Shown: positions 339 to 49,030 of the stretch, piece by piece
Layout of the letters: each line of letters opens with the position of its first letter
Position numbering within the stretch: the first letter of the stretch is position 1
Source: Planctomycetota bacterium
GTDB lineage: Bacteria > Planctomycetota > Planctomycetia > Planctomycetales > Planctomycetaceae
Assembly: GCA_003670925.1 (NCBI GenBank)
Contig: QWQG01000196.1
Span: 1-49,030, forward strand
Length of the DNA: 49,030 bases
Direction: 5' to 3'
Program-made: the position numbers and the translations under genes
The notes under the pieces: model-generated
What the model was told of the DNA's origin: nothing
What the model saw: only the letters and a program-made list of their open reading frames with translations
Database searches by the model: none

Positions 339-980
339 CACAATGTGCCGGAATCACACTTCGGCAAAACGGTCGCGGGAGTGCTGGTCGTTGATCGCTA
401 CAGTGCGTAGAAGGCGATGCGGCAAGTCAAGCTGGGCCAACTGGTGCTCGCGTTCTGCTGGGCTCATGTGCGGCGTGACTTTGTGCGGGTCGGCAAGGGC
501 TATCCCGAATTGAAAGACTGGGCTCTGGCGTGGCTGCTGCGGATTCGTGAGTTGTACTGCCTCAATCGCGAACGACTGCGGCACGCGCCGGGCACCAGCG
601 AGCGAACTGCTGCCGAATCCACTCTGCGGCAACAAGTGGCCACCATGGCGGCGCAGCGAGATTCCGAGCTGGCAGTCAAAACACTGCGTGAACCGTGCCG
701 TAAAGTTCTGGAAAGTCTGACGGGGCACTGGCACGGATTGACGCTGTTCGTCAACGACCCTCGCATCCCCATGGATAACAACTACGGCGACCGATTGATT
801 TGCGGGCCGGCCGTTGGTCGCAAGAATTACTATGGGAGCGGAGCGGAATGGTCGGGACGCCTAGCGATGATGCTGTTTTCAATCTTCGCGACGCTGACAC
901 TCTGGAAGATCAACCCGCGAAGCTGGCTGAACTGGTATTTCGAAGCGTGTGCGAACTGTGGCGGTAGTCGATCCCTGTGA
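339..980 (+). pseudogene. IS66-family transposase, C-terminal remnant
   Basis: The frame carries IS66 transposase (TnpC) features: a WAHVRRDF segment, then DNN followed by GPAVGRKNYYGSG, then a C-terminal block resembling LFSIFATLTLWKINP and WLNWYFEACA. The same frame continues upstream of the Met at 417 but is broken by a TAG at 408-410, just after VLVVDRYSA where related proteins are expected to have Tyr. The glutamate usually found after DNN (DNNxxER) is Asp here. The N-terminal half of the transposase is missing and the 3' end stops abruptly near 966, where sequence of a methyltransferase gene begins on the other strand. It is therefore a dead, truncated copy. The assignment rests on recalled family motifs. 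Confidence 0.85.
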
Positions 981-3660: not shown

Positions 3661-4053
3661 ATGACTGAAAATAAAATCGCAAAAATCATCGTGGACGCTG
3701 CTTATCAGATCCATGTCAGACTCGGGCCGGGGTTACTTGAGTCTGTCTATGAAACGGTCCTGGCATATGAACTGAAAAAGCGGGGCCTGAATGTGGTTCG
3801 ACAAGTTCCGGTCCCGGTAATTTACGACGATCTTGACTTCGAAGAAGGTTTTCGAGCAGACCTGATCGTGGAAGACCGTGTCATCATCGAACTCAAATCG
3901 GTGGAAAACATTCTTCCGGTTCATAAGAAGCAATTGCTGACATACCTTCGCCTCAAAGACTGTCGCCTTGGGTTGCTGATCAATTTTGGTGAAGCATTGA
4001 TCAAAGACGGTATTTCCAGAATCGCTAACGGTCTGAAGGATGATTCAAACTGA
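3661..4053 (+). CDS. GxxExxY-family protein (PD-(D/E)XK nuclease-like fold)
   Basis: This 130-residue protein is intact from ATG to TGA. It shows the family signature GLLESVY (Gly24, Glu27, Tyr30) after IVDAAYQIHVRLGPG. A PD-(D/E)XK-like core follows with Asp67 in GFRADLIVED and Glu77-x-Lys79 in VIIELKSVE, then a helical tail (KQLLTYLRLKDCRLGLLINF). The family (TIGR04256, related to PF13366) is common in planctomycetes and other environmental bacteria. A nuclease fold is predicted from the family, but the biological role is not established. Both sides are bordered by copies of the same palindrome, with hsdS tails upstream, which suggests it travels with this repeat or with restriction loci. 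A terminator-like role for the palindromes is possible, but they lack T-runs. Confidence 0.88.
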   Translation: MTENKIAKIIVDAAYQIHVRLGPGLLESVYETVLAYELKKRGLNVVRQVPVPVIYDDLDFEEGFRADLIVEDRVIIELKSVENILPVHKKQLLTYLRLKDCRLGLLINFGEALIKDGISRIANGLKDDSN

Positions 4054-18690: not shown

Positions 18691-19016
18691 CGTGACACTC
18701 CCGACATGATGGATTGATTCTTCACGAATGCTCCATGATGGCAGACGGCGTTCAGGGTTGCAAATCAGCTGACCTGCAGGTGGACTTTTCGCATTGATCT
18801 CAACGCAACGTTACAAGCCGCAGAGTCGGAGTGTCAAATTGTCCGTGAAGACGCTGAAGATGTGCGGTTTCTGTCTCGGAACTGAAACGCGAGGAAGGCT
18901 CGTTGACTTTTGCTGACTTCGCCGCCACCCTGTCCAATCTTCCGGCGGTCGGGCGGAGGTTCGAATTTCGGGCTTTTGGCAACCGCAAGTCTTTTTCGAT
19001 GCGATGCTGATTGTCC
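18691..19016. other. divergent promoter region, no gene seen
   Basis: This stretch separates glpQ (minus strand) from the FAD protein gene (plus strand), so both promoters should lie here. No clear promoter pair or operator repeat was found. Confidence 0.4.
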
Positions 19017-20615
19017 ATGCTGTTTCGAATTACAAATCTGCGAACCCCGGTTGAAATGCCGGAGCAGGCTCTGCCCGCTGAAGTGGCGCGGCGATTGGAA
19101 CTGCCTGCGGATGAACTTTCGACGCTGAAAATCCTGCGAAAAAGTCTCGACGCCCGCAGTCGCCATCGCATGGAATTTGTGTATTCACTCACGCTGTCGC
19201 TTCCAGACTCAGATTCAGCGCCCTTTGCGGACGGCATGGATATCGCGCCATGGTCGCCCCCCGCTTTTGAAGAACCCGAACTTGGGACGCAACCGCTGCC
19301 GTATCGACCAGTCATAGTCGGCTCGGGACCTGCAGGATTGCTGGCTGGTTATTTTTTGGCATTGCACGGCTATCGTCCGCTCATTATCGAACGCGGACAG
19401 GTCGTGCGTGAGCGCGTGCCTGCGATTCGTGATTTCGATTCCGGGGGTGAACACGACAACGAAAATAATTACCTGTTTGGCGAAGGTGGTGCCGGTTGCT
19501 TCAGTGACGGCAAACTGACGTGTCGGATTTCAGGACCGGATGCAGATTGGGTGCTGCAGAGTTTTGTGGACTGTGGTGGTCGTCCGTCACTTGTTTATGA
19601 AAATCGTCCGCATCTTGGCAGCAATAAGCTGCCTTTAATTTGTCGTAATTTTCGCCGCAAAATTGAAGCTCTCGGCGGTGAGTATAAGTTTGGCTGTCGT
19701 CTGGAAGGTCTAAGATTTCAAAATGGCTTGTTACAGGGATTGGAAACGTCATCCGGCTTCATTGAAGCGTCTGTCTGTTTGCTGGCGATCGGGCACAGCG
19801 CGCGAGATACGTACGAGATGCTACTCAAGACCGGATTGCCTCTGAAGCAGAAAGCGTTTCAACTTGGACTCAGGATTGAGCAGCCCCAAGAAACTGTCAA
19901 CCAGCGAAAATACGGGCGCGATGCCGATTATCTGACGTTGCTCGGTGCGGCTGATTATTCACTCATCGCTAAAGGCCAGAAGGACTTGTTCAGTTTCTGC
20001 ATGTGTGCCGGTGGCATCATGATTCCTAGTGTGTCTGAACCCAACATGTACTGCTCGAACGGCATGAGCAATTCACGACATGACACGCCATTTGCAAATA
20101 GCGGCTTAGTGGTCACCTTAGAACCGCATGAATTTGGCAGCAGTCATCCATTGGCCGGCATGTATGTCCAGCGGCAGTATGAATCGCTCGCCTTTCAAAT
20201 AACGGGCGGCAACTATCAAGCTCCCGTGCAACGCGCGCAAGATTTTCTTGCAGATCGAACACCGTCTCCGAATGAGCAGCTTCCATCGTCATACGAACGC
20301 GGCACACGCGCGAGGAATCTGGCAGCCGTGTTGCCGCCTTCGATCCTCAAAGCGATAAAATCCGGTCTGCCGATCCTCGATACTCAATGGCGTGGAGAGT
20401 TTCTGCAGGATGCCGTGCTGATCGGACCGGAAATGCGCGGCAGTTCGCCTGTTCGCATCGAGCGTGACCCAGCGACATTTGAAATTCCAGCCTTGCCTGG
20501 GGTCTATCCTGTCGGCGAAGGCGCCGGCTACGCGGGCGGCATTGTGACGGCCGCCGTCGATGGCCTGCGTGCGGCGCGGAAAATCATCACCAAGCACCGC
20601 GCCCCGGACGCTTAG
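19017..20615 (+). CDS. COG2509-type FAD-dependent dehydrogenase
   Basis: The 532-residue protein has about 95 N-terminal residues of a small alpha/beta domain (LKILRKSLDARSRHRMEFVY), then an FAD-binding Rossmann motif GSGPAGL at residues 102-108. It continues with GGEHDNENNYLFGEGGAGCF, SDGKLTCRI and a C-terminal GEGAGYAGGIVTAAVDGL that closes on the flavin. This order fits the family of uncharacterised FAD-dependent dehydrogenases (COG2509). The reaction is unknown; redox chemistry on a bulky substrate is inferred. The ATG at 19017 was chosen over a TTG two codons earlier. Its stop lies 3 bp from the stop of the convergent giant gene, with no room for a terminator. Confidence 0.85.
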   Translation: MLFRITNLRTPVEMPEQALPAEVARRLELPADELSTLKILRKSLDARSRHRMEFVYSLTLSLPDSDSAPFADGMDIAPWSPPAFEEPELGTQPLPYRPVIVGSGPAGLLAGYFLALHGYRPLIIERGQVVRERVPAIRDFDSGGEHDNENNYLFGEGGAGCFSDGKLTCRISGPDADWVLQSFVDCGGRPSLVYENRPHLGSNKLPLICRNFRRKIEALGGEYKFGCRLEGLRFQNGLLQGLETSSGFIEASVCLLAIGHSARDTYEMLLKTGLPLKQKAFQLGLRIEQPQETVNQRKYGRDADYLTLLGAADYSLIAKGQKDLFSFCMCAGGIMIPSVSEPNMYCSNGMSNSRHDTPFANSGLVVTLEPHEFGSSHPLAGMYVQRQYESLAFQITGGNYQAPVQRAQDFLADRTPSPNEQLPSSYERGTRARNLAAVLPPSILKAIKSGLPILDTQWRGEFLQDAVLIGPEMRGSSPVRIERDPATFEIPALPGVYPVGEGAGYAGGIVTAAVDGLRAARKIITKHRAPDA

Positions 20616-20618
20616 CCG

Positions 20619-23600
20619 TTACTCCACAACGATCACGCCGTTCATGACCATCCAGTGTCCCGGAAAGGTGCATAGGAACGGATACCGGCCCGGCTGGCTG
20701 GGCGCTTGGAAATAGATGGTTTGTTTTTCACCCGGTGGCACAATATCGGTGTGAGCGATGACCTTGTCTGACTCGGGAATGTACTGACGCGCAAAAGCTT
20801 CCGGATTGGCGATCAGCTGATTGCCGAGCTCACCCACGATTTGCAATGAACCTGGCTCGACAAGAACCCAGTTGTGCGGCACGACGTCGGGATTAGAAAG
20901 CGTAAAGGCGAGCGCCTCACCCGCTTTAACCGCGAATTCTTTTGTGGCGTACGATAGATTCTTGGCGGTCTCGATTTCAATTTGACGCGCGCCTTTGATC
21001 TTCTGTTGCCATGGATTGGGAATTTGCACCGCGTTCAGGGCCAGATCCGTGAGCAGTGGATGGGCAGCAATAATTTTCTCACGCGGTATGTAGCCCGGAA
21101 ATTCCGCAAAAGGTTTGTCAAGTTTGTGAACGGTCACGAACAAATCATGACCGAAACCCGCAGGCGAACACGTGAATGTATCGTCGTCGTTGACATGCAG
21201 TCGCAGATGCAGTTGATTGACAGGTTGCAGTTCAGGAATTTCAAGAAACAGCGAACGCCCGTCCGAAAGGACATGAGCCGATTGGATTGCCAACGAATCA
21301 TGGCCTGGAATCCCCGGATGCGTGGTGGAGTACTCAAGCGAACCGTAGGCGCCGCTGTAACGATAGTTCCAGCACTGCGCGAACTGGCGATGCGCGTCGG
21401 CGGCAATGGTAGCGTCAATTGGTTCAGCAAATGTGACTCGAATTCCGTTTTCGTACGTATGAAATCCGACCGGGATCTGAACCGGATCACCCGTGTAACG
21501 CACCCGCTGAAAACAGCCATCGTCCGGTGTGTAAGAGCCCCAGCCAGACATGCCAGACACATACAACTGACCGTCCTTAGAATTAAAGCGGCCGCGATGG
21601 GAGCCGGATAAAAAGTCGCCCGACATCGGGACGACGGCCCCCTGAAGCTGGCCGGCAACTTCGTCGCGCAACACGACAAGCCAAGATCCCGCGCCGAATG
21701 AAAAATGCAGTAATTGCCCTTCGAGCGGTCCAAACGCATGGCTCTCGACGTAAGCCTGTCCACCAGCCGAGTTGTCGAGTCCTCGTGGCAAATAGATGAA
21801 TGGCACCTCAGGCGGCTGGCCTTTTTGCGGACCACGGTACCCAAAATGCGGTGGATCGAACGGTAATTGTGTCCTTGCGTTTCGCACGGCGTGCACCATG
21901 GACGCAGGTGTCCACTCGCCTTCCGAAACCGGCAGCGTCACTGTTCCATCGGGCAGAATTCCCAGTCCGTCGGGATTTCGAAATCCGGTGGCAATGACAT
22001 CGGCCGTTTGACCGTCGGCCGAAATGCGAACTAAACCCTGATTTCCTGAAGCCGTGTAGAAGTTTCCAGCCTCGTCTCGCTGCAGCCCGCAGATATAGTC
22101 GTGTCCAGCAGGGGACGTGACAAAAGCATTGCTGAAACATTCGTAGAAGTCCGCTTCACCGTCATCGTTGAGGTCGGTAAGCCGTGTTAATTGATCTCGA
22201 CACTGCACGTAGATATTTCCTTCGGCGACAACTAGCCCCAAAGCATGGTGCAGGCCTGATGCAAATCGCCGCCAGCGAGCGACGCCCGGCTTGTCGATTC
22301 CAGAGTCCAGACCGGTGACATGCCACACGTCGCCCTGCATGGTGCAAACCAAAGCACTGCCGTCCGGAAGGAAATCATGATCGCCACAGAACATCGGAAT
22401 CTTCCACGGATTGTCGTACGGCAATTCGATTGTGTCCACGGCATATGGACGACCGTGTCCAAGTACGATTTTTGTCTCCAGAACCTGCGGCCATTGCCCT
22501 GGCCCGCCTGTCGCCATTTTGCGCAGCGGATGCTGATCCGCCGGCGCAACCTCACGCACGAATTTACCAGCTTCGACCCACGGTGAGTCAAGATACTCGA
22601 CATCCCCAATCCGATAGGCGAAGACGACTCGATTGCCGTAGCGATAGAAGCCATGATATTTGAAAGCCTTGTCAGGGGGAGTTTGGGTGGGAATGGGCAC
22701 CAACTGCCCCTCCATTTGCAGTGGGCTGACGAATCCATGACGCACGGATTCAAAGCCCACAAAACCACCTGACCAGACAGCGTCATACGTCAATGTGTCT
22801 GGATTGAAGCAGGCCGATAATTCACGATGCTCGCCAAGTTGCAGGCATACCCCCCGCGCCACCGTGGCCCCGCCAGCTTGAAAAACTCCAGACTGGACGG
22901 AACCGAGTTGTGTCTCGTTCCATCTGGCATCTGCCCAGACTGCTTCGTTTTGATTGCCCCAGTGTCCTTGCTTGCCGCCGTCCAGCCCCGGGAATTGACT
23001 CAGCAGCATGGGGATGTGCGGCTGTTGTCGGAAGAAGTCGGCTTGCTTGGTGTAGAAATCATACAGGCGATCGCGCGTCACAGGATGAGTGGCGTTCGCC
23101 CAGTGATTCGGTGCGAGCGGCTCCTTCGTGAACGGAAATTCCGCTGGGCCGTGCATCTGACGATGAGCAATGACGTCCTGCAGCTCTGCGGAAAGTGGTT
23201 TACCTTCGGGCCCAAGTTCGCTCAGGAATCGAATTAAGTCCAGTTGTTGTGGACGCGACATGGCTGCCGTCAAGCCAGCTGGCATCACAGTGCTGCCAGC
23301 GATTTCCTCTTCGATGTCGGCTCGTGCAATTGTCGTCAGATTGTTCGTCGCAGGATCGCGCAACGTGACTTGGCTTTCGTCCGAACTGTGTTTGTACCCG
23401 GTGAATACCTTGCCTTCGACAGTCAGAATCTGAAAGTTGATGAATTCAGGTTTAACGTCGCGTTTTGGCCATAGCACAGACTCCACAATGTGCCCCTGTT
23501 TGCGATCTTTAGCGACCGCCGACAAATCAGGGCCAAGAGTGCCTCCATGAGGTCCTATCTTGTGGCACGAAATGCAGGCCACTTTGACATCTGCGAAGAT

Positions 23601-25160
23601 CGCAGCTCCGCGAATCGCATTTCCATGGTCATTTGCTTCAGCGACAAGTTGCGTGACGAGATCGGCGTCATAGGGGATCTCCGGCATGATTCGACTCTGC
23701 GAATTCGACTGCGTTGGAGCACCGGTCGTGCCCGCCGCATTTTTTTCATCGGAGGTCCAAAACCCGACTGAGGAATCATCCCGCGATGCCACAATGACTG
23801 GTTCAGCAGGGATGTCTCTCGCACCGCTAGAAATGCGAACCCAGTCGATCTGACCGGCACATCCGAAATCGCCTTCGACGAGCCTGGCAATTGCCAATGC
23901 TCCTGGGACTCGCGACCCTCCGTCGAGACCAGTGATAGCCTGATCGGCCACCTGTTTACTGTCCACATACAACCTCACTCGAGTCGGTTCGTAGATCATC
24001 GACAGGGTATGCGTTTTTCCGTCGCAGATCATGGCCTCACTACGAACATGATCCGGCTGCTTGCCAGGAAAATAGGCGGTAAGCAGACCGCTGCCAGCCA
24101 TGGAAAACAGCTCCCAGTGTGCAGCTGATTGTTTCGTGTCACTCGCTACTAAAATGTTGTACTGATCGTGGTGCTGAATTGTGGCTCGAACTTCCACAGT
24201 GAGCGGCGGATGACGATACGCGTCGGCGCCCGGATAGACGCGGCCTGAAACACTCGCCGTGTCTGGATCGGGGGCCGCTGGTGGCTTCGGACCGCCACTG
24301 CCGGGCTTCTCGATTTCCTTGCGAACCCATTCCAACCCGTCCCGGTTTTCCAACAGCGATTCACGGGCATCCAGATGTTCACGATGATCAAGAATCCCGA
24401 TCGGCCCGTTGTAACCGCTTTCCACAACGATGCGAATCATTTCAAACTCATGCGTTCCTTTGCCGATCCCGAGGATTTTTGGCTGCTCCAGTTCGTTCAT
24501 CCCATTCAGATTTAGACAGTGTAGGTACGGCTTCATCAGCGTGAAAGATTCCACCCAGTCAGTCAGGTGCCCATGCCCGTGATGGAAGTTGTACACGATG
24601 CCAACGTGCTCCAGTCCGAGTTCATGTAGGCGTTTACTGACCGCTACTAAATTCTGCGGTTCACCGCTCCAGCCACCGTGGTTATAAAGCCCGAGCTTAC
24701 ATCCCATCGCCTTCGTACGCTTCGCGAGTGGCAACATCTGGGCAACTGCCGTTTCAACTTTCGCTTCCTCCGTCTCTCCAGCAGGCTGACTCATCATCTG
24801 CCAGATCTGCGGATGCAGGTCGTGCTTTTCAAACAGTTTGAAAGCTTCTTCGTGAGCACTCCAGAAAGCAAAGTATTCGATGCCGTGCTTTTTGTACTCC
24901 AAGATTTCCTGTTCAAACGTCGGCACATGTTCTTCGCGCCAGTCGTACGCACACCGCATGATGCCCAATTCTTTGAGCATCGTGGCGCGCTCAGCCGGCC
25001 CGCGTTTCGCGGCATCAAATGGCACAATGCACCAAGCGACTAGGTTTTCCCGACGCAGCACGTCAGCCTTCTCGCTGGCCCAAGCTGGCACTGCCAGACA
25101 AGCACAAAACGATGCAACAACGAGTATCAAGTTGAGGGAATGTGAAGTTGTTTTGGGCAT
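20619..25160 (-). CDS. giant secreted multidomain heme/copper protein (TIM barrel, LamG, cytochrome c, beta-propeller, blue copper)
   Basis: The product is 1,513 residues from the ATG at 25160, which opens a signal peptide (LNLILVVASFCACLAVPAWA). Parts in order: a sugar-isomerase-like TIM barrel (about 30-285; YNFHHGHGHLTDWVESF, GPIGILDHREHL); a LamG-like lectin fold (about 310-460); a cytochrome c domain with one heme site CISCH near residue 527 and EIAGSTVMPAGL as distal region; a DUF6797-like block (about 650-860); a PQQ/NHL-type beta-propeller (about 870-1180; TGFRNPDGLGILPDG); a linker domain; and a C-terminal plastocyanin/azurin-like domain with PHNWV and LCTFPGHWMVM supplying His, Cys, His, Met copper ligands. 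Such parts occur in planctomycete PVC-type heme proteins. The layout suggests periplasmic sugar oxidation feeding electrons through heme to copper. The isomerase part seems an unusual addition. Confidence 0.87.
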   Translation of the reverse strand: MPKTTSHSLNLILVVASFCACLAVPAWASEKADVLRRENLVAWCIVPFDAAKRGPAERATMLKELGIMRCAYDWREEHVPTFEQEILEYKKHGIEYFAFWSAHEEAFKLFEKHDLHPQIWQMMSQPAGETEEAKVETAVAQMLPLAKRTKAMGCKLGLYNHGGWSGEPQNLVAVSKRLHELGLEHVGIVYNFHHGHGHLTDWVESFTLMKPYLHCLNLNGMNELEQPKILGIGKGTHEFEMIRIVVESGYNGPIGILDHREHLDARESLLENRDGLEWVRKEIEKPGSGGPKPPAAPDPDTASVSGRVYPGADAYRHPPLTVEVRATIQHHDQYNILVASDTKQSAAHWELFSMAGSGLLTAYFPGKQPDHVRSEAMICDGKTHTLSMIYEPTRVRLYVDSKQVADQAITGLDGGSRVPGALAIARLVEGDFGCAGQIDWVRISSGARDIPAEPVIVASRDDSSVGFWTSDEKNAAGTTGAPTQSNSQSRIMPEIPYDADLVTQLVAEANDHGNAIRGAAIFADVKVACISCHKIGPHGGTLGPDLSAVAKDRKQGHIVESVLWPKRDVKPEFINFQILTVEGKVFTGYKHSSDESQVTLRDPATNNLTTIARADIEEEIAGSTVMPAGLTAAMSRPQQLDLIRFLSELGPEGKPLSAELQDVIAHRQMHGPAEFPFTKEPLAPNHWANATHPVTRDRLYDFYTKQADFFRQQPHIPMLLSQFPGLDGGKQGHWGNQNEAVWADARWNETQLGSVQSGVFQAGGATVARGVCLQLGEHRELSACFNPDTLTYDAVWSGGFVGFESVRHGFVSPLQMEGQLVPIPTQTPPDKAFKYHGFYRYGNRVVFAYRIGDVEYLDSPWVEAGKFVREVAPADQHPLRKMATGGPGQWPQVLETKIVLGHGRPYAVDTIELPYDNPWKIPMFCGDHDFLPDGSALVCTMQGDVWHVTGLDSGIDKPGVARWRRFASGLHHALGLVVAEGNIYVQCRDQLTRLTDLNDDGEADFYECFSNAFVTSPAGHDYICGLQRDEAGNFYTASGNQGLVRISADGQTADVIATGFRNPDGLGILPDGTVTLPVSEGEWTPASMVHAVRNARTQLPFDPPHFGYRGPQKGQPPEVPFIYLPRGLDNSAGGQAYVESHAFGPLEGQLLHFSFGAGSWLVVLRDEVAGQLQGAVVPMSGDFLSGSHRGRFNSKDGQLYVSGMSGWGSYTPDDGCFQRVRYTGDPVQIPVGFHTYENGIRVTFAEPIDATIAADAHRQFAQCWNYRYSGAYGSLEYSTTHPGIPGHDSLAIQSAHVLSDGRSLFLEIPELQPVNQLHLRLHVNDDDTFTCSPAGFGHDLFVTVHKLDKPFAEFPGYIPREKIIAAHPLLTDLALNAVQIPNPWQQKIKGARQIEIETAKNLSYATKEFAVKAGEALAFTLSNPDVVPHNWVLVEPGSLQIVGELGNQLIANPEAFARQYIPESDKVIAHTDIVPPGEKQTIYFQAPSQPGRYPFLCTFPGHWMVMNGVIVVE

Positions 25161-25575: not shown

Positions 25576-26868
25576 ATGCGAAGCGCCACTGACGCAACGT
25601 TGATTCACAACGGCCAGGTCATTGATGGAACTGGAGCCCCTGCGATCCCTGACGGCTGTGTGCTGATTGAATCCGGCATTATTCGTTATGTTGGGCCGCT
25701 GCGGACTGTGCCGCCAGGATCGGAATCAGCGGTACGGTTAAATGCGAATGGGGGCACGATTATGCCGGGGCTTGTGGAAGCGCATTTTCACGCGACATAC
25801 TTTAATGTTGCCGCCTTGGAAGATCTGGATATTAAATACCCAGTGGAATATGTCACCCTGTTGGCGGCCTGCAACGCCCGATTGGTGCTGGAATGCGGAT
25901 ACACGTCGGCCCGCAGCGGAGGCAGTCTGTTCAATATTGATGTGTGGCTAAAAAAAGCGATCGAAAATGACCTCGTGATCGGGCCTCGGCTGGCGACAAG
26001 TGGACGTGAGATTTGTGGTGCCGGTGGGCTGATGGACTGGAATCCTGAGTTCCGCAAGATCGGCATGGAAGGATTGATTTTGCTTGTCAACGGAGCTGAC
26101 GAAGCGCGCAAGGCCGTCCGGAAACTCGTCAAAGACGGCGTGGAATGGGTCAAGACATATCCTACCGGCGACGCAGCCGCAGCCGACTCCAATGATCATC
26201 ATACGCTGTGCATGACGTTTGAAGAAATGCACGCGGTCGTCCAGACCGCGCACAATCATGGCATGAAAGTCACGGGGCATTGCCGTGCTACAGCGGGCAT
26301 CAAAAACGCGCTCTTAGCGGGCTACGACGCGATCGAACACGGCACGTTTATGGATGACGAAACGCTCGAACTGCTGCTGAAACGAAATGTGCCAGTCGTG
26401 CCGGCATTGTATTTTGAGATGATGAGTATTGAACGTGGCCCTGAATTCGGCATGTCGCAAGCTGTGATCGATGGGCACCAAGAAACGCTGGATGGCGGTG
26501 CGGAAAGTGCGCGACGCATTCTGGCGGCAGGTGGAAGACTCGGGATGGGCGGCGATTACGGGTTCGCTTGGAATCCGCACGGTGACTATGCCAAAGAGTT
26601 ATCCTTCTTCGTGAACTATGTCGGTTTGAAACCACTGGACGTCATCAAGTGTGCGACTCAAACCGGCGCCGAAATTTTGGGACGCGAGCATGAGCTAGGA
26701 ACACTGGCTGTCGGAAAACTGGGCGACGTGCTGGTCGTGGACGGCGATGTTTTGGCCGATATCTCGATTCTGCAGGACCGGAAACGACTCATCGCTGTCC
26801 TGCAATCCGGCATCGTCAAAAGCCGCTGCGGCGTTAGTTGCTTGAGCGGTGACGCAGTCGTCAGTTGA
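25576..26868 (+). CDS. metal-dependent amidohydrolase (imidazolonepropionase-like)
   Basis: The 430-residue protein is an amidohydrolase-superfamily enzyme with the small beta-sandwich (LIHNGQVIDGTGAPAIPDGC) around a TIM barrel. Metal ligands are visible: His70 and His72 in EAHFHAT, Lys193 in VKTYPTG, His235 in VTGHCRA, His255 in AIEHGTF and Asp327 in GGDYGF. The C-terminus has the usual LGTLAVGKLGDVLVVDGDVL segment. There is no signal peptide, so it is cytoplasmic. Related enzymes hydrolyse cyclic amides, dipeptides or aryl amides; the substrate cannot be read from sequence. AAAGG precedes the ATG. It is convergent with argS. Confidence 0.9.
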   Translation: MRSATDATLIHNGQVIDGTGAPAIPDGCVLIESGIIRYVGPLRTVPPGSESAVRLNANGGTIMPGLVEAHFHATYFNVAALEDLDIKYPVEYVTLLAACNARLVLECGYTSARSGGSLFNIDVWLKKAIENDLVIGPRLATSGREICGAGGLMDWNPEFRKIGMEGLILLVNGADEARKAVRKLVKDGVEWVKTYPTGDAAAADSNDHHTLCMTFEEMHAVVQTAHNHGMKVTGHCRATAGIKNALLAGYDAIEHGTFMDDETLELLLKRNVPVVPALYFEMMSIERGPEFGMSQAVIDGHQETLDGGAESARRILAAGGRLGMGGDYGFAWNPHGDYAKELSFFVNYVGLKPLDVIKCATQTGAEILGREHELGTLAVGKLGDVLVVDGDVLADISILQDRKRLIAVLQSGIVKSRCGVSCLSGDAVVS

Positions 26869-34694: not shown

Positions 34695-36104
34695 CTATTG
34701 GGGATTTAGGTCGATGCACACCATCCACTTTTCGCTGCGGAGGAAAAGTTTGCCGCCCGAGAGGACAGGGGCAGCCCACGCAGGATAATCGATTTCATTC
34801 AATGAAAAACGTCCATGTTCGACAAACTTCTCCTTGTCGACATCCACGACAGAAATTGTGCCACGTTCGCCCAGTACGATGAATCGCGAACCGACTTGGA
34901 TCAGCGATCCACGTCCAAAATAAGGATAAGGAATCTCTTTGCCGGTATTCGCATCAATAATGTGGCCTGTCGTGCGGTCGCGACTCAAGTTTTTTAGATC
35001 ACCTTCGTATCCGATTGTCTTCCACAGTAGCTTACCTGTCTCCGCGTTAATGCAGCGAAGTTCGCCTTCGTTTTCGTGACGGCCGCTGAATCCATAAATG
35101 CAACCATCGACATAAATCGGCGTGGACCAGTGCGCCAGCATACTTGTCCGATCGCGCCAAACTTCGCGGTATTGCTTACCATCTTTGTCAACTTCCAGCA
35201 TTGCCGATCCCAATTGATAGGCCACTGAAACAAAGACGCGGTTGTCTATCACTAATGGTCGGGCAGCGTTGACAGATTCATGCACTTTCGCCCGAAACCA
35301 GTAGTGGAAATTTTCGGCGCCGGTGCGCGGGTTAAGCGACACAAGACCCTGACGCATCAGACATAGCAGATGTTTCTCCCCATGAATCTCAGCCATGATC
35401 GGTGACGAATAGCTGACCAACATATCGTCATCCGTCCACTCGTGCGGTTTTCCTTTTTGATCCGTTTCGACACCATCCCATGTGTCCTTTCCCACGGCTT
35501 GCCACAGGATCTCACCGGTCTTCACGTCGAAAGCGACCACTCCAGAATTCGGCTGACCGCCAACGAGTACAATGAGTCGATCATCGTCAAGAATAGGCGA
35601 ACATCCGATTCCGAAGAAAGCTTCCGGAAGTGTGAATTCTTTCCGAAGTTCTTTTTTCCACAGGAGCTTGCCGTCAGTCATTGACGTGCAGGCCAACATT
35701 CCCTCGGCCCCCAGTGTCAAGCAGCGTTCTTGCGTCAGCACGGGAGAGCAGCGAGGCCCGTTATTGTAGCCATAAGGATCCTCATATGCTGTCGGGTAAG
35801 CGTGGGCCCAAATTTCCTTGCCCGTTTCAACGTTGCGGCACGACACGATTTCACGGTTTTCTTCACGATGATGAATTACCACGCGATCACCCAATACCGA
35901 CGGCGCACTGTAGCCTGTGCCGATGGATTCTTTCCAGAGCACGGGAGGGGGCGTGGCGGTCCAGTCCAGCTTTAACTGAGTTTCACCAGAGACGCCGGTA
36001 TGCCGCGGGCCAAGGAATGTTGGCCAGTCTTCTGCCAGCAAGTTTACCGGCACCGATGTTAGCCAGAATGTGAAACCTAAGATTTGTAGGGCGATCTTAT
36101 TCAC
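34695..36104 (-). CDS. secreted PQQ-binding-like beta-propeller protein
   Basis: The 469-residue protein has a signal peptide (IALQILGFTFWLTSVPVNLL then AEDWPTFLGPRHTGVS). The opening DWPxFLGPxxTGVS and the repeated blades (NVETGKEIWAHAYP, DGKLLWKKELRK, DVKTGEILWQAVG, NAETGKLLWKTIG) are those of planctomycete outer-membrane-assembly-like PQQ beta-propellers. Such proteins may bind PQQ or only serve as scaffolds; no dehydrogenase catalytic residues could be assigned. The start is a GTG at 36104 with CGGAG 8 bp ahead. It begins 13 bp after the stop of the DUF1549/DUF1553 gene and is very likely co-transcribed with it. Confidence 0.9.
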   Translation of the reverse strand: MNKIALQILGFTFWLTSVPVNLLAEDWPTFLGPRHTGVSGETQLKLDWTATPPPVLWKESIGTGYSAPSVLGDRVVIHHREENREIVSCRNVETGKEIWAHAYPTAYEDPYGYNNGPRCSPVLTQERCLTLGAEGMLACTSMTDGKLLWKKELRKEFTLPEAFFGIGCSPILDDDRLIVLVGGQPNSGVVAFDVKTGEILWQAVGKDTWDGVETDQKGKPHEWTDDDMLVSYSSPIMAEIHGEKHLLCLMRQGLVSLNPRTGAENFHYWFRAKVHESVNAARPLVIDNRVFVSVAYQLGSAMLEVDKDGKQYREVWRDRTSMLAHWSTPIYVDGCIYGFSGRHENEGELRCINAETGKLLWKTIGYEGDLKNLSRDRTTGHIIDANTGKEIPYPYFGRGSLIQVGSRFIVLGERGTISVVDVDKEKFVEHGRFSLNEIDYPAWAAPVLSGGKLFLRSEKWMVCIDLNPQ

Positions 36105-36117
36105 GCGGAAACTCCGA

Positions 36118-39100
36118 TTAACGAATGGTTACGAAATCATTGTGATTGATCAGCGCGTGAATCAGCATGGTGCGCGACTTTGACACTGCGTCATCTGATT
36201 CAGGGGCGGTGGTCAGGCTGCGAAATTCATGCATCGCGGCGACTGAGGCAGCGACCTCCTGTGCATTCGCGTCCACTGCTAGTACTGTTTGAAATGCAGC
36301 TTGTACGAAAGTGGCATCGGTATCAATCTGCGGCAGTGCAGACACCAGCGTGGCGATCTTCACGGCGAGCACGCTAGCCAATTCGCTGTTTTCTAACGCC
36401 AATGCCTGTTGCGGGACAATACTGTCCACGCGGCGATAGCACTCGAGCACGCTGGCATCGTCAAACATCGACAGAAATTTCTGATGCTCATTGTTTGAGT
36501 GCACATAATACAAACTCCTCCGCCGCGATGTGTCGTCGTTCACCGGAATCGAAGGGCCACCGAGCGTTAAATCTAATTCACCGCCGAGATGCAGTAAACC
36601 ATCCCGCACAAGTTGGGCTTCCATGCGAATGGGATTGGCCCGCCAAAACCAGCGATTGCCGCTGTCGTGTTGGGAATTCACGTCAGCGGCGGCGTATCGA
36701 CTGGACGTCATGCGATAGGTGTTGGACGTCAAAATTAGGTGATGGATGTGCTTCATGCTCCAGCCACTCTCGATAAGTTCCACCGCGAGCCAGTCGAGCA
36801 GTTCGGGATGCGTCGGCGGCATCCCTTTGCGGCCGAAGTCAAACACTGTGGGGACGAGTGGCGTGCCGAAATGCCTAGCCCAGATATGATTCACGGCGAC
36901 TCGCGCTGTAAGCGGATTGTCACGATGTGTCATCCACTCCGCCAACGCAGTTCGACGGCCCGTGCTGGTTTTGGGGAACGGTTTGCGGCGGGACTCTTCT
37001 GTCTCAAGATTGGACTCCAGTGTCTTCAGGGAACCCGTCAGCGATACGTAGGTATTTCCCGGGACGTCCAGAGCCCCGCGCGAGACTTCGAGGGACTTCT
37101 GGGCAGCTGCGAGTTTGTCGGCTGCCTCCGCCCGTTTTTCGACATTCGCCTGCAGGCAATCGAGCTCAGCCCTGAGCACATTTTCAGCCGCGGCGGCAGC
37201 AGCAACTATCCGTTCGGCCTTCGCTGCTGCTGCCACAAGACTGTGCGATTCCGGAGCATCGGGATTCTCCGCGAGCGCTCGATCTGCCGCGGATCGCGCT
37301 TGGATCGACGGCGGTTCTGCCTGCAGTTTGTTGAGGGTAGTTTCCGCAATTTGAACAACCAAAGTCGCCTGATCGACGGGCAATATGTGGTCAGCAGTTG
37401 GCCCCGAAACGGCTTCACGCAAATTCACAGACTCTGGCAATGAAGTGAGCGTAAACGAGACAAACGTCGCTTGGGCGTCGAATGTGATCAGATCGAGCCG
37501 CCCAACTCGTCGCGCAAACGGCAACCGATACGCGATCGAATGCATGCCGTCGACGACCATATTCACCAACGTGCCACGTACCCGAATTAGCAGTTCGTGC
37601 GACGTATTTAGACTGACCATGCGACTTTCTGCCGCTTCAGACGGATACATCTGCACGCCCTCTTGCAGGAATGAAACTTGAGCTTTTGGGCCGTCCACGA
37701 ACGCACTTAAATACGTCATCACTTCATGGGTATCGTCAGCTACATCAAATGCAATCCCGACGGACTTCCAAACATCGCCTCCGGTTGGAACGTATTTTAA
37801 CGTGGCCTGAAAATCTTGTGGTGGCAGGTGCACGAGCCGCAAAGTCGCTCGCGTCGCACCTGCCTGCGACTGCAGAAGTTTGCCATCGGCATAATTCCAT
37901 GTCCCACTTCGCTGTTCCCAGTGTTCAGGACGCGCGACTGAAAAGTCGTCAGACACTACGACGGTGGCTTCATTCGAATTACCGGCAGCTCCTAGTTGTG
38001 CCGGCACACTGTTCAGGACTGCTCGCGCCGCAGCAAGTTTCTCTTTGGCAGCGATGAGTGTCAAACGGGCATTTTCAATCTGACGCTCTGCGGCCTGCAA
38101 ATAAGCGTCGATGACACCTTGCCGCAACCCTGGATTCCAAGCCTCCGCCGGCAACACTAATGGTGCAATTGAGAAATCACCACACGCCAGAAACTGGGGA
38201 ATCGCAGGGTGCATGACGCGTGCTGGATCCGGATTGCGATCGTCGCCGCGAATGTGCAGGTATGTCGGAGTGTCGAGATTGCAATCGAAGGCGCGGGGCA
38301 GACCATCTTTTTCGAAATCGAGTTCACTCCCCATGATGTCGGTACGAACCTGATACGGCTCAAAGAAGGCACGCATCTGATAATAGTCTACATGCGAAAT
38401 GGGATCATATTTGTGGTCGTGGCACTTCGCACAGTTGAAGGTCAGCCCCAAGAGGGCTTTGCATGTGTGCTGAACCGTCTCATCCATCCAACTCGTCCGG
38501 TTAAACTTGAAATACTGACGCGCCAGAAATCCCGATGCTCGCAGTCGGTCAGGGTCATTCGGATACAACTCATCGGCTGCCAGCATTTCGCGGACCATTT
38601 GGTCGTAGGCTTTGTCGCTGTTGAGCGATTCAACGATCCAGTCGCGCCAATGCCAGATATGTTTTTGCGAATTCCGAACTTCAGCACCAAGTCCCCACCA
38701 GTCGCTATACCGCCAAATGTCCATCCAATGACGTCCCCAACGTTCACCATATTGGGGACTTGCCAGCAGTCTCCTAACCACACGCGTGGATGCGTCCGGA
38801 GACGCGTCATCCAAGAACGCAGACTGTTCGGCAAGTGTCGGCGGTAGCCCGCTCAGATCGAATGAAACTCGCCGCAGCCAGATTCGTTTCCCGGCGACAG
38901 GTTGTGGGGTTAGTCCATGCTGCTCATGCGACGCTGAGATAAAAGCGTCGATGGGATTGGCGTTCCATCCGGCATTCATGACGTTGGGAACTTCACTTCG
39001 GATCGGAGGTCTGAACGCCCAATGATCCCGAGGATCTGCTTCCTGTGGTTCGTCCGCTGGAGCGTTTGCGCCTGCGTTGATCCAGCGGCGGATGGCATCG

Positions 39101-39405
39101 ATCTCATGAGGTTTAAGTGCTTCTCCTTCCGGTGGCATCCGTGCAGCCAAATCTTGCGCGGAGATTCGTTTGAATAAATTGCTTGCTGCAGCATTTCCAG
39201 GCACAATCGCCGGCCCGCCGTCACCTCCGCCGATTGCCGCCGCCGCGGTATCAATCCGAAGACCGCTTTCCTGTTTCAACGCCCCGTGACATGCGAAACA
39301 GCGTTCTTGGAAAACGTGCCGCACCTGCGTCCGATAATCCACAGCGTCATCAGCCAGTACGAAGCTGGTGATGAGCATCATAAAATAGTGAATCAAGAAC
39401 GTCAT
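36118..39405 (-). CDS. PSCyt1/DUF1549/DUF1553 planctomycete cytochrome protein
   Basis: The 1,095-residue secreted protein has a short signal (MMLITSFVLA). Next come a PSCyt1 cytochrome domain with CFACH near residue 38 and RMPPEGEALKPHEIDAIRRW, then DUF1549 (about 150-360; GERWGRHWMDIWRYSD, and a second heme-type motif CAKCHDHKYDP near 325). A middle LamG-like insertion follows (about 460-660; FQATLKYVPTGGDVWKSVGI), then a long Ala/Glu coiled coil (about 690-780) and DUF1553 (about 800-1,095; TRRTALAEW-type start RRTALAEWMTHRDNPLTARV). The family is multiplied in planctomycetes, thought to act in breakdown of complex sugars, but is experimentally open. It usually pairs with a DUF1501 gene; here the partner is a PQQ-like propeller. 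ATG 39405 was chosen; a GTG lies one codon earlier. Confidence 0.92.
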   Translation of the reverse strand: MTFLIHYFMMLITSFVLADDAVDYRTQVRHVFQERCFACHGALKQESGLRIDTAAAAIGGGDGGPAIVPGNAAASNLFKRISAQDLAARMPPEGEALKPHEIDAIRRWINAGANAPADEPQEADPRDHWAFRPPIRSEVPNVMNAGWNANPIDAFISASHEQHGLTPQPVAGKRIWLRRVSFDLSGLPPTLAEQSAFLDDASPDASTRVVRRLLASPQYGERWGRHWMDIWRYSDWWGLGAEVRNSQKHIWHWRDWIVESLNSDKAYDQMVREMLAADELYPNDPDRLRASGFLARQYFKFNRTSWMDETVQHTCKALLGLTFNCAKCHDHKYDPISHVDYYQMRAFFEPYQVRTDIMGSELDFEKDGLPRAFDCNLDTPTYLHIRGDDRNPDPARVMHPAIPQFLACGDFSIAPLVLPAEAWNPGLRQGVIDAYLQAAERQIENARLTLIAAKEKLAAARAVLNSVPAQLGAAGNSNEATVVVSDDFSVARPEHWEQRSGTWNYADGKLLQSQAGATRATLRLVHLPPQDFQATLKYVPTGGDVWKSVGIAFDVADDTHEVMTYLSAFVDGPKAQVSFLQEGVQMYPSEAAESRMVSLNTSHELLIRVRGTLVNMVVDGMHSIAYRLPFARRVGRLDLITFDAQATFVSFTLTSLPESVNLREAVSGPTADHILPVDQATLVVQIAETTLNKLQAEPPSIQARSAADRALAENPDAPESHSLVAAAAKAERIVAAAAAAENVLRAELDCLQANVEKRAEAADKLAAAQKSLEVSRGALDVPGNTYVSLTGSLKTLESNLETEESRRKPFPKTSTGRRTALAEWMTHRDNPLTARVAVNHIWARHFGTPLVPTVFDFGRKGMPPTHPELLDWLAVELIESGWSMKHIHHLILTSNTYRMTSSRYAAADVNSQHDSGNRWFWRANPIRMEAQLVRDGLLHLGGELDLTLGGPSIPVNDDTSRRRSLYYVHSNNEHQKFLSMFDDASVLECYRRVDSIVPQQALALENSELASVLAVKIATLVSALPQIDTDATFVQAAFQTVLAVDANAQEVAASVAAMHEFRSLTTAPESDDAVSKSRTMLIHALINHNDFVTIR

Positions 39406-39642
39406 CACGGACCCGAATTTGGCGAGCGGTGCTGGTTAACCATCGGTACGATGAATGATGCGTCTAAAGCGCACCACGCACGTCACGAGGCAAGGGGGGG
39501 CGATAAAGATGGCAGGGGGGAAATGCCGAATTCCAACGCACTGAGATTCGGCAACAGAAGGATCAGTGATTCCATATTTCAATGCTGGGAGATTGATTGT
39601 TCGTGTGGCACGGCGTGGGACGCGTCACATCGTACACCATTG

Positions 39643-44465: not shown

Positions 44466-45149
44466 CTATTTCCTCGAAAAACGGTAACCGACGCCTCGCA
44501 CCGTTTCGATAAGGTCGGTGGTGTCGCCCAGTTTTTTGCGAAGGGCGCGGACGTGCACGTCGATTGTGCGTTCAAGGGAATTTGCGTCTTCACCGCGCGA
44601 TGTTTCTAGCAGCTCATTTCGCGAAAATGGCCGGCCTGGCTGCGACATCATCGTCCACAACATCCGAAATTCCGTGGGTGTGAGTTCCAGTTCAATCCCG
44701 TTGTATTTGACCGCATGATTCGTGCGGTCAATTTCAATGCCGTGCAGTTGGAGCACATTCTTCCCGGTATCGACAGTGTCAGATCGCCGCAGTAGGGCTT
44801 TAATGCGGTGCATGAGCGGCTGCACACGAAACGGTTTCGTCACGTAATCGTCGGCGCCCATATTAAAGCCGACGATCTCGTCAGTCTCGCCGCTCCGCGC
44901 GGTGAGCATCATCACGGGGATCGCTTTGGTACGTGCGTCGGATTTCAGAAGTCGGCAGATTTGCAGTCCGTCAATTCCCGGGAGCATCAGATCCAGCAGA
45001 CAAAGGTCGGGAATCAATGTCTGCGCTTTCAGCAATCCATCACGCCCATCCCGCTCCCAATGCACATCGAAACCCTCCTTCTGCAGGTTGTAGACAATCA
45101 CGTCAGCAATGGACTGTTCGTCTTCAATCACAAGAATGTTGGGTTGCAT
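44466..45149 (-). CDS. phoB: PhoB-type response regulator
   Basis: The 227-residue protein has a receiver domain (acidic Glu9/Asp10, phospho-acceptor Asp53 in CLLDLMLPGIDG, Thr83, Lys105 in DDYVTKPF) and a winged-helix OmpR/PhoB output domain (ELTPTEFRMLWTMMSQPGRP, RTIDVHVRALRKKLGD, IETVRGVGYRFSRK). Its place directly after phoU and the pst genes marks it as the phosphate regulator. The sensor kinase PhoR is not in the window. It starts 23 bp after the phoU stop and is the last gene of the cluster. Confidence 0.93.
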   Translation of the reverse strand: MQPNILVIEDEQSIADVIVYNLQKEGFDVHWERDGRDGLLKAQTLIPDLCLLDLMLPGIDGLQICRLLKSDARTKAIPVMMLTARSGETDEIVGFNMGADDYVTKPFRVQPLMHRIKALLRRSDTVDTGKNVLQLHGIEIDRTNHAVKYNGIELELTPTEFRMLWTMMSQPGRPFSRNELLETSRGEDANSLERTIDVHVRALRKKLGDTTDLIETVRGVGYRFSRK

Positions 45150-45172
45150 GGAAGTCTATCTGCTTATGAAAT

Positions 45173-45835
45173 TTAGCGATGCAGCCGAGGATGCCGGATA
45201 ATGGCAGCCTCAACCAAGTACACGACATCTTCGGCGATATTCGTGGCGTGGTCGGCAACTCGTTCCACATGACGAATCACGGAAAACAAGTGCAGACTCG
45301 GCTCTACAAGTTCCGGTTGCCGTTTCATCACGGTGACCACCTCTTCGATCAATTCACGGTTCAACTTATCCACGAGTTCGTCACGCTTGCAGATCAGACG
45401 TGCGGCCACCGAATTTTCTTCAACAAACGCATCAATGCTGTCATGCAACATGCTCAGCGCTTCTTCCGTCATCTGACTCAAACGGCTAGGCATGGTAAAT
45501 TCGCCATGTTCCGCAATTCCGGCTGATCTTTCAGCGATACTCACTGCAAGGTCAGCAACTCGTTCTAATTCTGCGGCAATTTTCATCACCACAGCCACGC
45601 GACGAAGGTCATTCGCTACCGGATGATAGAGCGCCAGAATTTTCAGGCACTCTTCTTCGATCCGAATATCCCATCGATCCACTTCGCCGTCGCGCAGTGA
45701 AACTTCTTGGGCCAGTTCGCTGCGGCCATGGTTTAGACCATCGACAGCGTCATGAATCAGTTCTTCAACGGTTGAACACATCGACAGAATGTCTCGATGC
45801 AGGTATTCCATTTCGTTGACAAAGTGAATGGTCAT
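45173..45835 (-). CDS. phoU: phosphate-uptake regulator PhoU
   Basis: The 220-residue all-helical protein consists of two PhoU repeats. The paired metal-binding-type motifs are visible: ECLKILALYHPVANDLRRVA followed by KIAAELERVADLAVSIAE in the first, and LFSVIRHVERVADHATNIAE in the second. PhoU holds PhoR inactive when the Pst transporter is saturated. It sits between pstB (167 bp upstream) and phoB (23 bp downstream). An 11-bp repeat in the pstB-phoU gap may give phoU-phoB its own Pho-responsive promoter. Confidence 0.95.
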   Translation of the reverse strand: MTIHFVNEMEYLHRDILSMCSTVEELIHDAVDGLNHGRSELAQEVSLRDGEVDRWDIRIEEECLKILALYHPVANDLRRVAVVMKIAAELERVADLAVSIAERSAGIAEHGEFTMPSRLSQMTEEALSMLHDSIDAFVEENSVAARLICKRDELVDKLNRELIEEVVTVMKRQPELVEPSLHLFSVIRHVERVADHATNIAEDVVYLVEAAIIRHPRLHR

Positions 45836-45913
45836 ACGCCACAGATCCTAGGGGTTTTGCGTACAGCCATTGACCTCGTCGTTGGGCTTCGCATTGTGAA
45901 GATGGTTATTAAT

Positions 45914-45973
45914 AAATTGTTAAGGCAGTGACCAACTCTCGGAGCTAATCGTGAATTTTCGCAAATTGTTAAG
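45914..45973 (-). promoter_or_regulatory. candidate Pho operator repeats before phoU
   Basis: On the minus strand CTTAACAATTT occurs twice (45914-45924 and 45963-45973). After the copy nearer phoU the sequence continues TTAACA-N5-TTAATA and then TTCACA, a spacing of 11-12 bp like the tandem half-sites bound by PhoB/PhoP-type regulators. The match is by eye to half-sites known from other phyla, so binding by the encoded PhoB is inferred. Confidence 0.4.
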
Positions 45974-46002
45974 ATAGCCTTTGCGGGATGCCAGATCTCC
46001 CG

Positions 46003-46830
46003 TCAGCCGAAGCGACCTGTGATGTAATCTTCAGTCTTTTTCTCTGAAGGTCCGGTAAAGATCTTCATGGTAGGCCCGGTTTCCACGAGCACTCCTTTAT
46101 AGAAGAATGCTGTTTGGTGGCTGACGCGCGACGCCTGCTGCATATTGTGGGTCACGATCACAATTGTATAGTTGGCGCACAGTTCTCCGATCAGATTTTC
46201 GATGCGGTCAGTGCTCGCGGGGTCCAAGGCAGACGCCGGTTCATCCATCAGAATGATGCGGGGATTGGTTGCTAACGTGCGGGCGATACAAAGTCGCTGC
46301 TGCTGACCACCAGACAATGCCATGGCGGACTTTGTGAGTCGATCTTTCACTTCATCCCATAATGCCGCTTTTTTTAGACAAGACTCCACTAAATCCGCAA
46401 GGACGGACCGATTTGTTTCTCCTGCCACACGCGGCCCGTAGGCGACGTTATCAAAAATTGATTTTGGAAATGGGGTCGATTTTTGAAATACCATGCCAAC
46501 ATGTTTCCGCAGCAGCACCACATCGACGGCCGGGTCCATAATGTTTTGGCCTTCGACCAAGATTTGACCCACGCAGCGGGAACCTTCGATCAGGTCGTTC
46601 ATCCGGTTGAGCGTCCGCAGAAAAGTACTTTTCCCGCAGCCGGAAGGGCCAATCAACGCGGTCACAGATCGCTCGGGAACGGTCAGGGACACATTAAACA
46701 GGACCTGATGTTCACTATAATAGAAATCGAGGCCGTTGACTTGGATCGCCGCTGGATGGGCCGACATATCGAGGTTGCGATCGACACCTGCGACGGAAGG
46801 CGGGACAGAACTGGAGGTAATGGCTGGCAT
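46003..46830 (-). CDS. pstB: phosphate ABC transporter, ATP-binding protein PstB
   Basis: The 275-residue ATPase drives high-affinity phosphate import. It has Walker [10 protein letters not shown] (61-69), the Pst-typical [20 protein letters not shown], signature LSGGQQQR, Walker B IILMDEP and the His of IVIVTHNM. About 25 extra residues precede the ABC domain. It begins 56 bp after pstA. Confidence 0.97.
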
Positions 46831-46886
46831 GTTGAATTCGGTCCGATATGCTCAAGTGTTTCCTAAGACGCGTGGTGGATCTGCGT

Positions 46887-48910: not shown

Positions 48911-48920
48911 GAAGTATTTG

Positions 48921-49030
48921 TTACTGGATCGCGGCTTCGAAAGCCTCACGGTTGGCCTTCAATTGTTCGTCGCTGACGTCAACATAGCCGACGGCACTCA
49001 CCTGTTTCTGACCTTCGTTCACAAAGAACC
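48921..49030 (-). CDS. pstS: phosphate-binding protein PstS, C-terminal end (partial)
   Basis: Only the last 36 codons are inside the window. The frame reads FFVNEGQKQVSAVGYVDVSD then EQLKANREAFEAAIQ and a TAA at 48921-48923. The pattern FxVNEGQ...VGYVxL is the usual end of PstS, and its position just ahead of pstC supports this. The protein would be the periplasmic phosphate receptor. Confidence 0.85.
   Translation of the reverse strand, partial: FFVNEGQKQVSAVGYVDVSDEQLKANREAFEAAIQ

Follow-up and report, generated by a model that had tools for sequence, protein, structure and literature searches.

Can one exported protein bind a sugar, oxidise it and pass the electrons through a heme to a copper site? 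This question is raised by a long reading frame in a stretch of 49,030 nucleotides from a Planctomycetota bacterium (referred to here, at its full length, as the window). A preliminary description had read the frame as a fusion of a sugar-isomerase barrel, a LamG domain, a cytochrome c, a β-propeller and a blue copper domain, forming a self-contained chain for such a reaction. We analyzed the frame, its relatives and the predicted structures of its domains with respect to this proposal.

The reading frame and its domains

The coding frame runs on the minus strand from 25160 to 20619 without an internal stop and encodes a single protein of 1,513 residues, the length given in the preliminary description, which named no strand. 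The plus strand over the same stretch (20619–25160) contains many stops. With an alternative TTG start at 25202 the protein would be 14 residues longer (1527 aa). As judged from its sequence, which begins with a putative signal peptide, the product is an exported, single large polypeptide. The frame is located between opposite-strand genes on both sides, one for an FAD-dependent protein (19011–20615, plus strand) and one for an amidohydrolase (25576–26868, plus strand), whose families are unrelated to it. No sugar context was found among the genes adjoining the frame within the window. It had been considered that the isomerase and heme parts might be two genes split by a sequencing error. This is excluded because the frame is unbroken and 31 other frames share the same domain order; a split gene or frameshift was therefore rejected.

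Several further features of the window were observed. A planctomycete cytochrome protein of the PSCyt1-PSCyt2-PSD1 type (1,096 aa, 36118–39408, minus strand) is directly followed by a gene for a PQQ_2/BamB-like propeller protein (34695–36104, minus strand), possibly a second cytochrome-propeller pair. An IS66 transposase fragment (417–980, plus strand) and a PD-(D/E)XK_3 protein (3661–4053, plus strand) are located near the left end of the window. The region 44466–48949 (minus strand) reads as a phosphate-regulon-like run of a response regulator and PhoU-, PstB-, PstA- and PstC-like genes.

Table 1. Features of the coding frame, with positions in the window.
Feature	Residues	Positions	Strand	Basis
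Whole coding frame, 1,513 aa plus stop		20619..25160	-	Translation
Signal peptide (…AWA/S)	1-29	25074..25160	-	By eye from sequence
Xylose-isomerase-like TIM barrel (AP_endonuc_2)	~35-290	24291..25058	-	Profile and structural matches
LamG (Laminin_G_3, concanavalin-like), optional in family	~305-455	23796..24248	-	Pfam
c-type heme domain TIGR02603; C529-x-x-C532-H533, distal M626	~505-650	23211..23648	-	NCBIfam, alignment
DUF6797	783-858	22587..22814	-	Pfam
Six-bladed β-propeller; invariant H1020, R1061-N1062, E1080	~905-1224	21489..22448	-	Structural matches, alignment
Azurin/auracyanin-type cupredoxin; H1429, C1497, H1502, M1506	1394-1513	20622..20981	-	Pfam, structural matches

The domains are listed in Table 1. 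Matches above the Pfam cut-offs were obtained for Laminin_G_3 at residues 320–448 (29.7 bits, cut-off 27.6), DUF6797 at 783–858 (50.8 bits, cut-off 24.9) and Copper-bind (PF00127) at 1395–1513 (48.4 bits, cut-off 21.2), and above the NCBIfam cut-off for the TIGR02603 heme domain at 513–647 (70.6 bits, cut-off 68.15). The match of the barrel to AP_endonuc_2 (PF01261, residues 126–281) reaches 22.4 bits and is under the Pfam cut-off of 31.1; the relatives L217, L219, L220 and L223 pass the gathering score for this family. For the propeller, the TIGR02604/DUF7133 match is below the cut-offs, TIGR02604 at 966–1046 with 27.0 bits being far under its value of 122.2. The azurin equivalog TIGR02695 is not reached either (52.1 bits, cut-off 105.1).

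AlphaFold models were calculated for residues 26–490 (alignment of 27 relatives, mean pLDDT 89.8, pTM 0.62) and residues 495–1513 (alignment of 35 relatives, mean pLDDT 84.9, pTM 0.80). The barrel model matched sugar isomerases and epimerases with Z-scores of 19 to 19.8 over 230–255 residues. The models of the propeller and the azurin domain matched six-bladed propellers and auracyanin/azurin, respectively, with Z-scores of ~16–20. The DUF6797 part returned hardly any hits in the structure search, and a PQQ-bound complex was absent among the matches listed. All five parts named in the preliminary description are present, and DUF6797 is a sixth one that it had overlooked.

The ligands of the heme and of the copper ion are invariant in an alignment of 101 rows. 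C529, C532 and H533 of the heme motif were found in 97/97 rows with a letter at these positions and the distal M626 in 99/99. On the copper side, H1429 is present in 101/101 rows and C1497, H1502 and M1506 in 100/100, so that both the heme and the His, Cys, His and Met of the copper site are in place as initially described. The domain matches and the ligand conservation are far beyond chance. A published azurin census contains, in its accessible text, one planctomycete match, which was ascribed to contamination or wrong annotation (PMC8779525). The azurin-like domains observed here keep the four ligands, are located at the C-terminus of large planctomycete proteins and do not reach the cut-off of the azurin equivalog.

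A homologue of the heme domain is found in the C-terminal domain of Kustd1711 (PDB-entry 7zs0, E 5e-10), where M626 pairs with the distal M292. Azurin-type copper has a potential near that of the Kustd1711-type heme. For the hemes of Kustd1711 with Ca2+ by the heme, the accessible text of PMC11791136 gives potentials of about +350 to +355 mV. A Kustd1711-type heme and an azurin-type copper could thus exchange electrons easily. Since the sequence does not fix the direction of flow, electrons might also run from the heme and the azurin domain into the propeller and there drive a reduction or a peroxidatic reaction. The closeness in potential of such a heme (~+350 mV) and azurin-type copper would permit this, but no reductase-type active site was recognised, and the sugar-type context of the Spirosoma and Rufibacter loci described below suits oxidation better. 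We regard reverse flow as very unlikely.

Distribution of the family and exchange of its modules

The N-terminal isomerase part had been considered unusual. A survey of 150 genomes of the same taxonomic family, however, yielded a match to the window protein (E up to 1e-150) in 46 of them. When species genomes were scanned, relatives were found to be encoded in 212 stretches, the best 80 of which were kept. The comparison set, a sample chosen by similarity, comprises 101 distinct frames including the window's own; seven of the 101 are left-cut by a contig end. The order barrel, LamG and heme-to-copper core is found in 32 of these frames (window's own included), barrel and core without LamG in 29 and the core alone in 40, with 61 frames carrying the barrel. 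The window protein belongs to a common planctomycete family; neither the barrel nor the domain order is rare, and a rare architecture was rejected. The fusion also occurs in the isolates Stieleria tagensis (L052) and Rhodopirellula maiorica SM1 (L053).

Individual members of the set deserve a remark. The nearest named relative (L050, 86% identical) is from a MAG that bears the label Candidatus Kuenenia stuttgartiensis; this label is probably wrong, because a genome with the same match is assigned to the genus of the window. In L042 (G107, contig C334) the barrel is split over two frames of 157 and 1,415 aa, which suggests that this copy contains a frameshift or was wrongly assembled. A start-cut frame of 628 aa in the window's own genome (L004/L015; G000, contig C177) contains an azurin-like domain followed by a heme domain, i.e. 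the reverse order; this azurin-like domain is 40% identical.

In five of the 40 core-only frames (L046, L067, L068, L076 and L123) the core is immediately preceded, on the same strand, by a barrel in a frame of its own. Fusion and fission therefore both occur. These five relatives might be taken as a hint that the window protein is an artefact, with two genes wrongly joined in assembly or annotation, but its frame is unbroken and barrel and core are fused in 60 other distinct frames, isolates included. The chance of such an artefact is practically negligible.

A quick, unrooted tree of 92 rows (the seven left-cut rows, L042 and L046 were dropped) requires at least 24 changes of architecture, compared to 45.8 in shuffles. 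Modules were therefore gained or lost many times. Distances of the barrel and of the core correlate with r = 0.57 (57 rows, 0 of 2,000 permutations as high, species tree ignored), and those of the azurin domain and the core with r = 0.67 (species tree likewise ignored), as expected for jointly inherited parts. A barrel match was present in 41 of the 46 genomes with the protein and in 36 of the 104 without it (kinship ignored), mostly because the barrel counted is the fused gene itself. For genomes with an unfused core, a barrel was found by hand in 9/14 when G137, whose core is cut by a contig end, was left out, and in 10/15 when it was counted (p = 0.023, kinship ignored). Twenty of 294 genomes of the phylum contain a barrel; it is present in 13 of the 14 genomes in which the core match reaches the azurin end or is cut by the contig (by hand). 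No core frame was found beside the stand-alone barrels in 12 loci of 6–13.5 kb, which weakens the idea of a strict partnership. A conserved gene neighbourhood was rejected: the recurrent neighbours across the named loci belong, by eye, to large planctomycete families (cytochrome/PSD-type and tat-type) and occur at scattered distances, some only 4 bases away.

We compared the order of modules in nine further stretches, taken from a search for other barrel-bearing frames in the taxonomic family. L217, L218 and L219 (1,954, 2,071 and 1,926 aa) comprise barrel, LamG and DUF6797-propeller followed by five CxxCH motifs; no match to the azurin ligand region was obtained in them (Pfam was run on L217 and L219). 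In L222 (3455–10183) a ThuA domain occupies the slot of the barrel and is followed by LamG, DUF6797, propeller, PA14 and five CxxCH, and L225 consists of DUF6797, propeller and five CxxCH. In L220, barrel and LamG are joined to a stretch resembling TIGR02604 (66.5 bits, under the cut-off) and, at the C-terminus, to a TIGR02603 heme that passes its cut-off; L221 is like L220 by BLAST, and L223 contains barrel and LamG alone. Modules are thus swapped around the DUF6797-propeller. The His, Arg, Asn and Glu of the propeller are kept in all five frames with five CxxCH, and the pocket residues of the barrel do not differ between the seven barrel frames compared among these relatives, apart from position 258, which is variable. 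Constant barrel and propeller residues together with differing tails indicate that the substrate-side part stays and the electron part changes.

Beyond the planctomycetes, the propeller-azurin part was found on a Rufibacter plasmid, with glycoside hydrolase genes next to it. On a Spirosoma plasmid the barrel is found in a SusC/SusD locus together with Gfo/Idh/MocA and ThuA genes. Barrels also exist as exported proteins of their own, and one is part of a Bacteroidota polysaccharide locus.

The barrel and its pocket

The profile of the barrel matched one built from 14 AP_endonuc_2 proteins that the window's genome encodes (hhalign 98.1%, E 8.8e-14). Together with the fold (Z up to 19.8) this bears out the sugar-enzyme-type barrel of the preliminary description. 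Its metal site differs from that of the family. Metal-dependent sugar isomerases and epimerases of the D-tagatose 3-epimerase type bind their metal by E, D, H and E on strands 5 to 8. At these positions the window barrel has Y159, N191, N217 and L257 (hhalign). The 14 canonical proteins from the window's genome, which served as a control, have E in 13/14, D in 14/14, H in 12/14 and E in 14/14. Y159, N191 and N217 are each present in 64/64 barrel rows, and position 257 is Leu in 50 and Ile in 14 of the 64. The pairing on strand 7 depends on the aligner: a HMMER alignment to 3wqo shifts the register, and the His then pairs with column 214, which is Leu in 33/64 and His in 12/64 rows, and His in the window protein.

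The remainder of the pocket is kept as well. N160, H161, H193, H194, H196, N219 and H259 are found in 64/64 barrel rows, as are the tryptophans W43, W100, W120 and W164. In 17 barrels that are separate from or adjacent to a core, Y159, N191 and N217 are present in 17/17 and position 257 is Leu or Ile in 17/17; H161 and H194 are present in 16/17 and H259 in 14/17, with exceptions in L199, L196, L197 and the Spirosoma protein L201. With the metal ligands replaced and the rest of the pocket nearly invariant, the barrel is not an ordinary isomerase. A metal-dependent isomerase was rejected, and the label "sugar-isomerase" cannot be retained as a function.

A Foldseek search with the barrel placed YcjR (6wn6), a 3-keto-D-glucoside 4-epimerase, second among many near-tied matches. 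The same E/D/H/E ligand positions are described for the 3-keto-glycoside eliminase AtOGE in the accessible text of PMC10628242, according to which His134, two residues past the strand-5 ligand, is catalytic, the H134A variant lost all activity and Mn2+ is required. H161 is located two residues past Y159 and thus has the same spacing (compared by position only).

The barrel could be a pseudoenzyme, which has lost its metal and serves only for carbohydrate binding or partner docking beside LamG. The replacement of all four canonical ligands is in line with this reading, the barrel is absent from 40/101 relatives with an intact core, and W43, W100, W120 and W164 would suit sugar stacking. For a binding module, however, the polar pocket is unusually constant (10 residues in 64/64 rows), the barrel exists as separate exported proteins without a nearby core (12 loci), and the spacing of H161 equals that of the essential His134 in the accessible description of AtOGE (PMC10628242; by position only). 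We consider a pseudoenzyme rather doubtful, yet a serious contender. The barrel is a member of an isomerase-fold family whose metal site was swapped for an equally conserved non-metal pocket, which points to an unknown sugar chemistry.

The propeller, the proposed function and known systems

The best structural matches of the propeller include the aldose/glucose dehydrogenases 2ism, 3a9g, 7cgz and 3das (Z 18–19), and the GSDH-type structures 2ism, 3a9g, 7cgz, 3das, 7cdy and 2g8s gave Z-scores of 17–19. These matches are tied with designed Pizza proteins and NHL domains, and SMP30-type lactonases are close. The presence of a β-propeller, as initially described, is thereby supported, and it is of the six-bladed type (Z ~16–20). 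A comparison with five GSDH domains of the same genome (L185 left out) gave a weak hhalign match (E 0.0025, probability 11.7), which pairs H1020 with the histidine of an HNGG motif and TGFRNP with YGFRN. The Arg-Asn pair is present in all six GSDH proteins of this genome (by eye). In the family alignment, H1020, R1061, N1062 and E1080 are found in 101/101 rows. In sGDH, the catalytic His and the Arg-Asn at PQQ are H144, R228 and N229. The propeller resembles soluble PQQ sugar dehydrogenases in its modeled fold and, as far as the weak alignment goes, in a His/Arg-Asn pattern.

The GSDH model (PF07995) gave no match in the window protein at E up to 1 and is not among the families listed for 35 relatives; it has eight matches elsewhere in the same genome. 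A search for pqqC was positive in 1 of the 150 genomes of the family; the gene was found neither in the window's genome nor in the 46 genomes that encode the protein. With pqqC missing, the protein would depend on imported PQQ or on a different cofactor. PQQ import is reported to be widespread in Gram-negative bacteria (PMC12124388).

Alternatively, the propeller could be a hydrolase, a lactonase or a structural hub, with heme and copper taking part in electron transfer or sensing unrelated to the sugar part. NHL and SMP30/gluconolactonase matches tie with those of the sugar dehydrogenases, and pqqC is missing. In addition, Lac161_ORF7, a heme-bearing TIGR02604/TIGR02603 relative, was reported as a β-galactosidase, i.e. 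with lactose hydrolysis and not oxidation in the accessible text of PMC5342196, which keeps a hydrolytic function open. On the other hand, the propeller is fused to different, complete electron-transfer modules (mono-heme plus azurin, or five CxxCH), which argues that the electrons arise in the shared part. A propeller outside redox catalysis is in our view unlikely.

From the unbroken frame, its domains, the conserved ligands, the replaced metal ligands and the swapped modules we infer the following function, which we favor tentatively and at somewhat less than an even chance: the protein would be an exported carbohydrate oxidiser. LamG (when present) and the barrel would hold the carbohydrate, and the six-bladed propeller would remove electrons from it, possibly with PQQ or another cofactor. 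The high-potential c-heme and the azurin domain would then pass these electrons out towards the respiratory chain. The barrel, an isomerase-fold partner without the usual metal but with an acid-base-capable, His- and Trp-rich pocket, could either present the sugar or reshape the oxidised product. The invariant heme and copper ligands, the GSDH-like propeller matches, the module exchange, the Rufibacter and Spirosoma loci and a pocket that is invariant whether fused or separate all speak for carbohydrate oxidation. Against it stand the fold ties of the propeller, the weak hhalign match to GSDH, the unmatched PF07995, the missing pqqC, the lack of sugar context among the window neighbours and the reported hydrolysis by Lac161_ORF7.

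A more specific version of carbohydrate oxidation can be formulated. The propeller might produce a keto-sugar from a glycoside, which the metal-less barrel would cleave or epimerise with H161 as an acid-base replacing the Mn2+/His pair of the 3-keto-glycoside eliminases; heme and copper (five hemes in relatives) would remove the electrons. ThuA proteins are tied to 3-keto-sugar metabolism. A keto-sugar chemistry of this kind agrees with the ThuA domain in the slot of the barrel of one relative and with the Spirosoma locus, where genes for the barrel, Gfo/Idh/MocA and ThuA occur together. We consider this version improbable as it stands. If true, the oxidise-then-cleave/epimerise route would match the NAD-linked 3-keto pathways of the cytoplasm, but would run in the periplasm and be coupled to respiration.

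Exported cytochrome fusions whose use is unknown are numerous in planctomycetes. If one and the same sugar-type part is connected to exchangeable electron outlets, either heme plus azurin or a tail of five CxxCH motifs, these cytochromes would be tied to carbohydrate oxidation, an idea that is directly testable. No description of the architecture was found in a literature search that covered subscription papers thinly. Each of the modules is known, and it is their combination and the metal-less barrel that are undescribed in the searchable literature.

A comparison with known systems is therefore made module by module. The combination of a cytochrome with LamG (pfam13385) in one exported protein is shared with the PSCyt1-3 proteins with PSD1-5, but no PSCyt or PSD domain was found in the window protein (Pfam). 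For PSCyt proteins of Verrucomicrobia with carbohydrate-binding modules including pfam13385, the accessible text of PMC5615132 calls the function unknown and proposes a role in carbohydrate use. The PVC-type heme-binding CxxCH proteins (TIGR02604 with TIGR02603) likewise contain an exported, dehydrogenase-like propeller and the same heme domain. In the window protein, however, the heme is N-terminal to the propeller with DUF6797 between them, the azurin domain comes after the propeller and TIGR02604 is below its cut-off. The heme of L220, unlike that of the window protein, is C-terminal, behind HEAT-like repeats.

With the soluble PQQ aldose/glucose dehydrogenases (GSDH, PF07995) the protein shares the six-bladed propeller, and a weak profile match aligns its His and Arg-Asn with theirs, but its propeller is not recognised by the GSDH model and the genome is without pqqC. 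The barrel corresponds in fold and profile to D-tagatose 3-epimerase and xylose-isomerase-like barrels (PF01261; UlaE, IolI, YcjR). It differs from them by Y/N/N/L in place of the E/D/H/E ligands and by a score below the Pfam cut-off. The diheme cytochrome Kustd1711 of Kuenenia (7zs0) has the same heme domain with the inserted strands and the distal Met; as described in the accessible text of PMC11791136, it consists of two such hemes without propeller, barrel or copper. The copper part, finally, is similar to azurin and auracyanin in its type-1 set of H, C, H and M, in the azurin-like C-TFPG-H-xxx-M spacing and in its fold (Z 18.8 to auracyanin A). In contrast to these proteins it scores below the azurin equivalog cut-off and is not a free protein, but the C-terminal domain of a much larger one.
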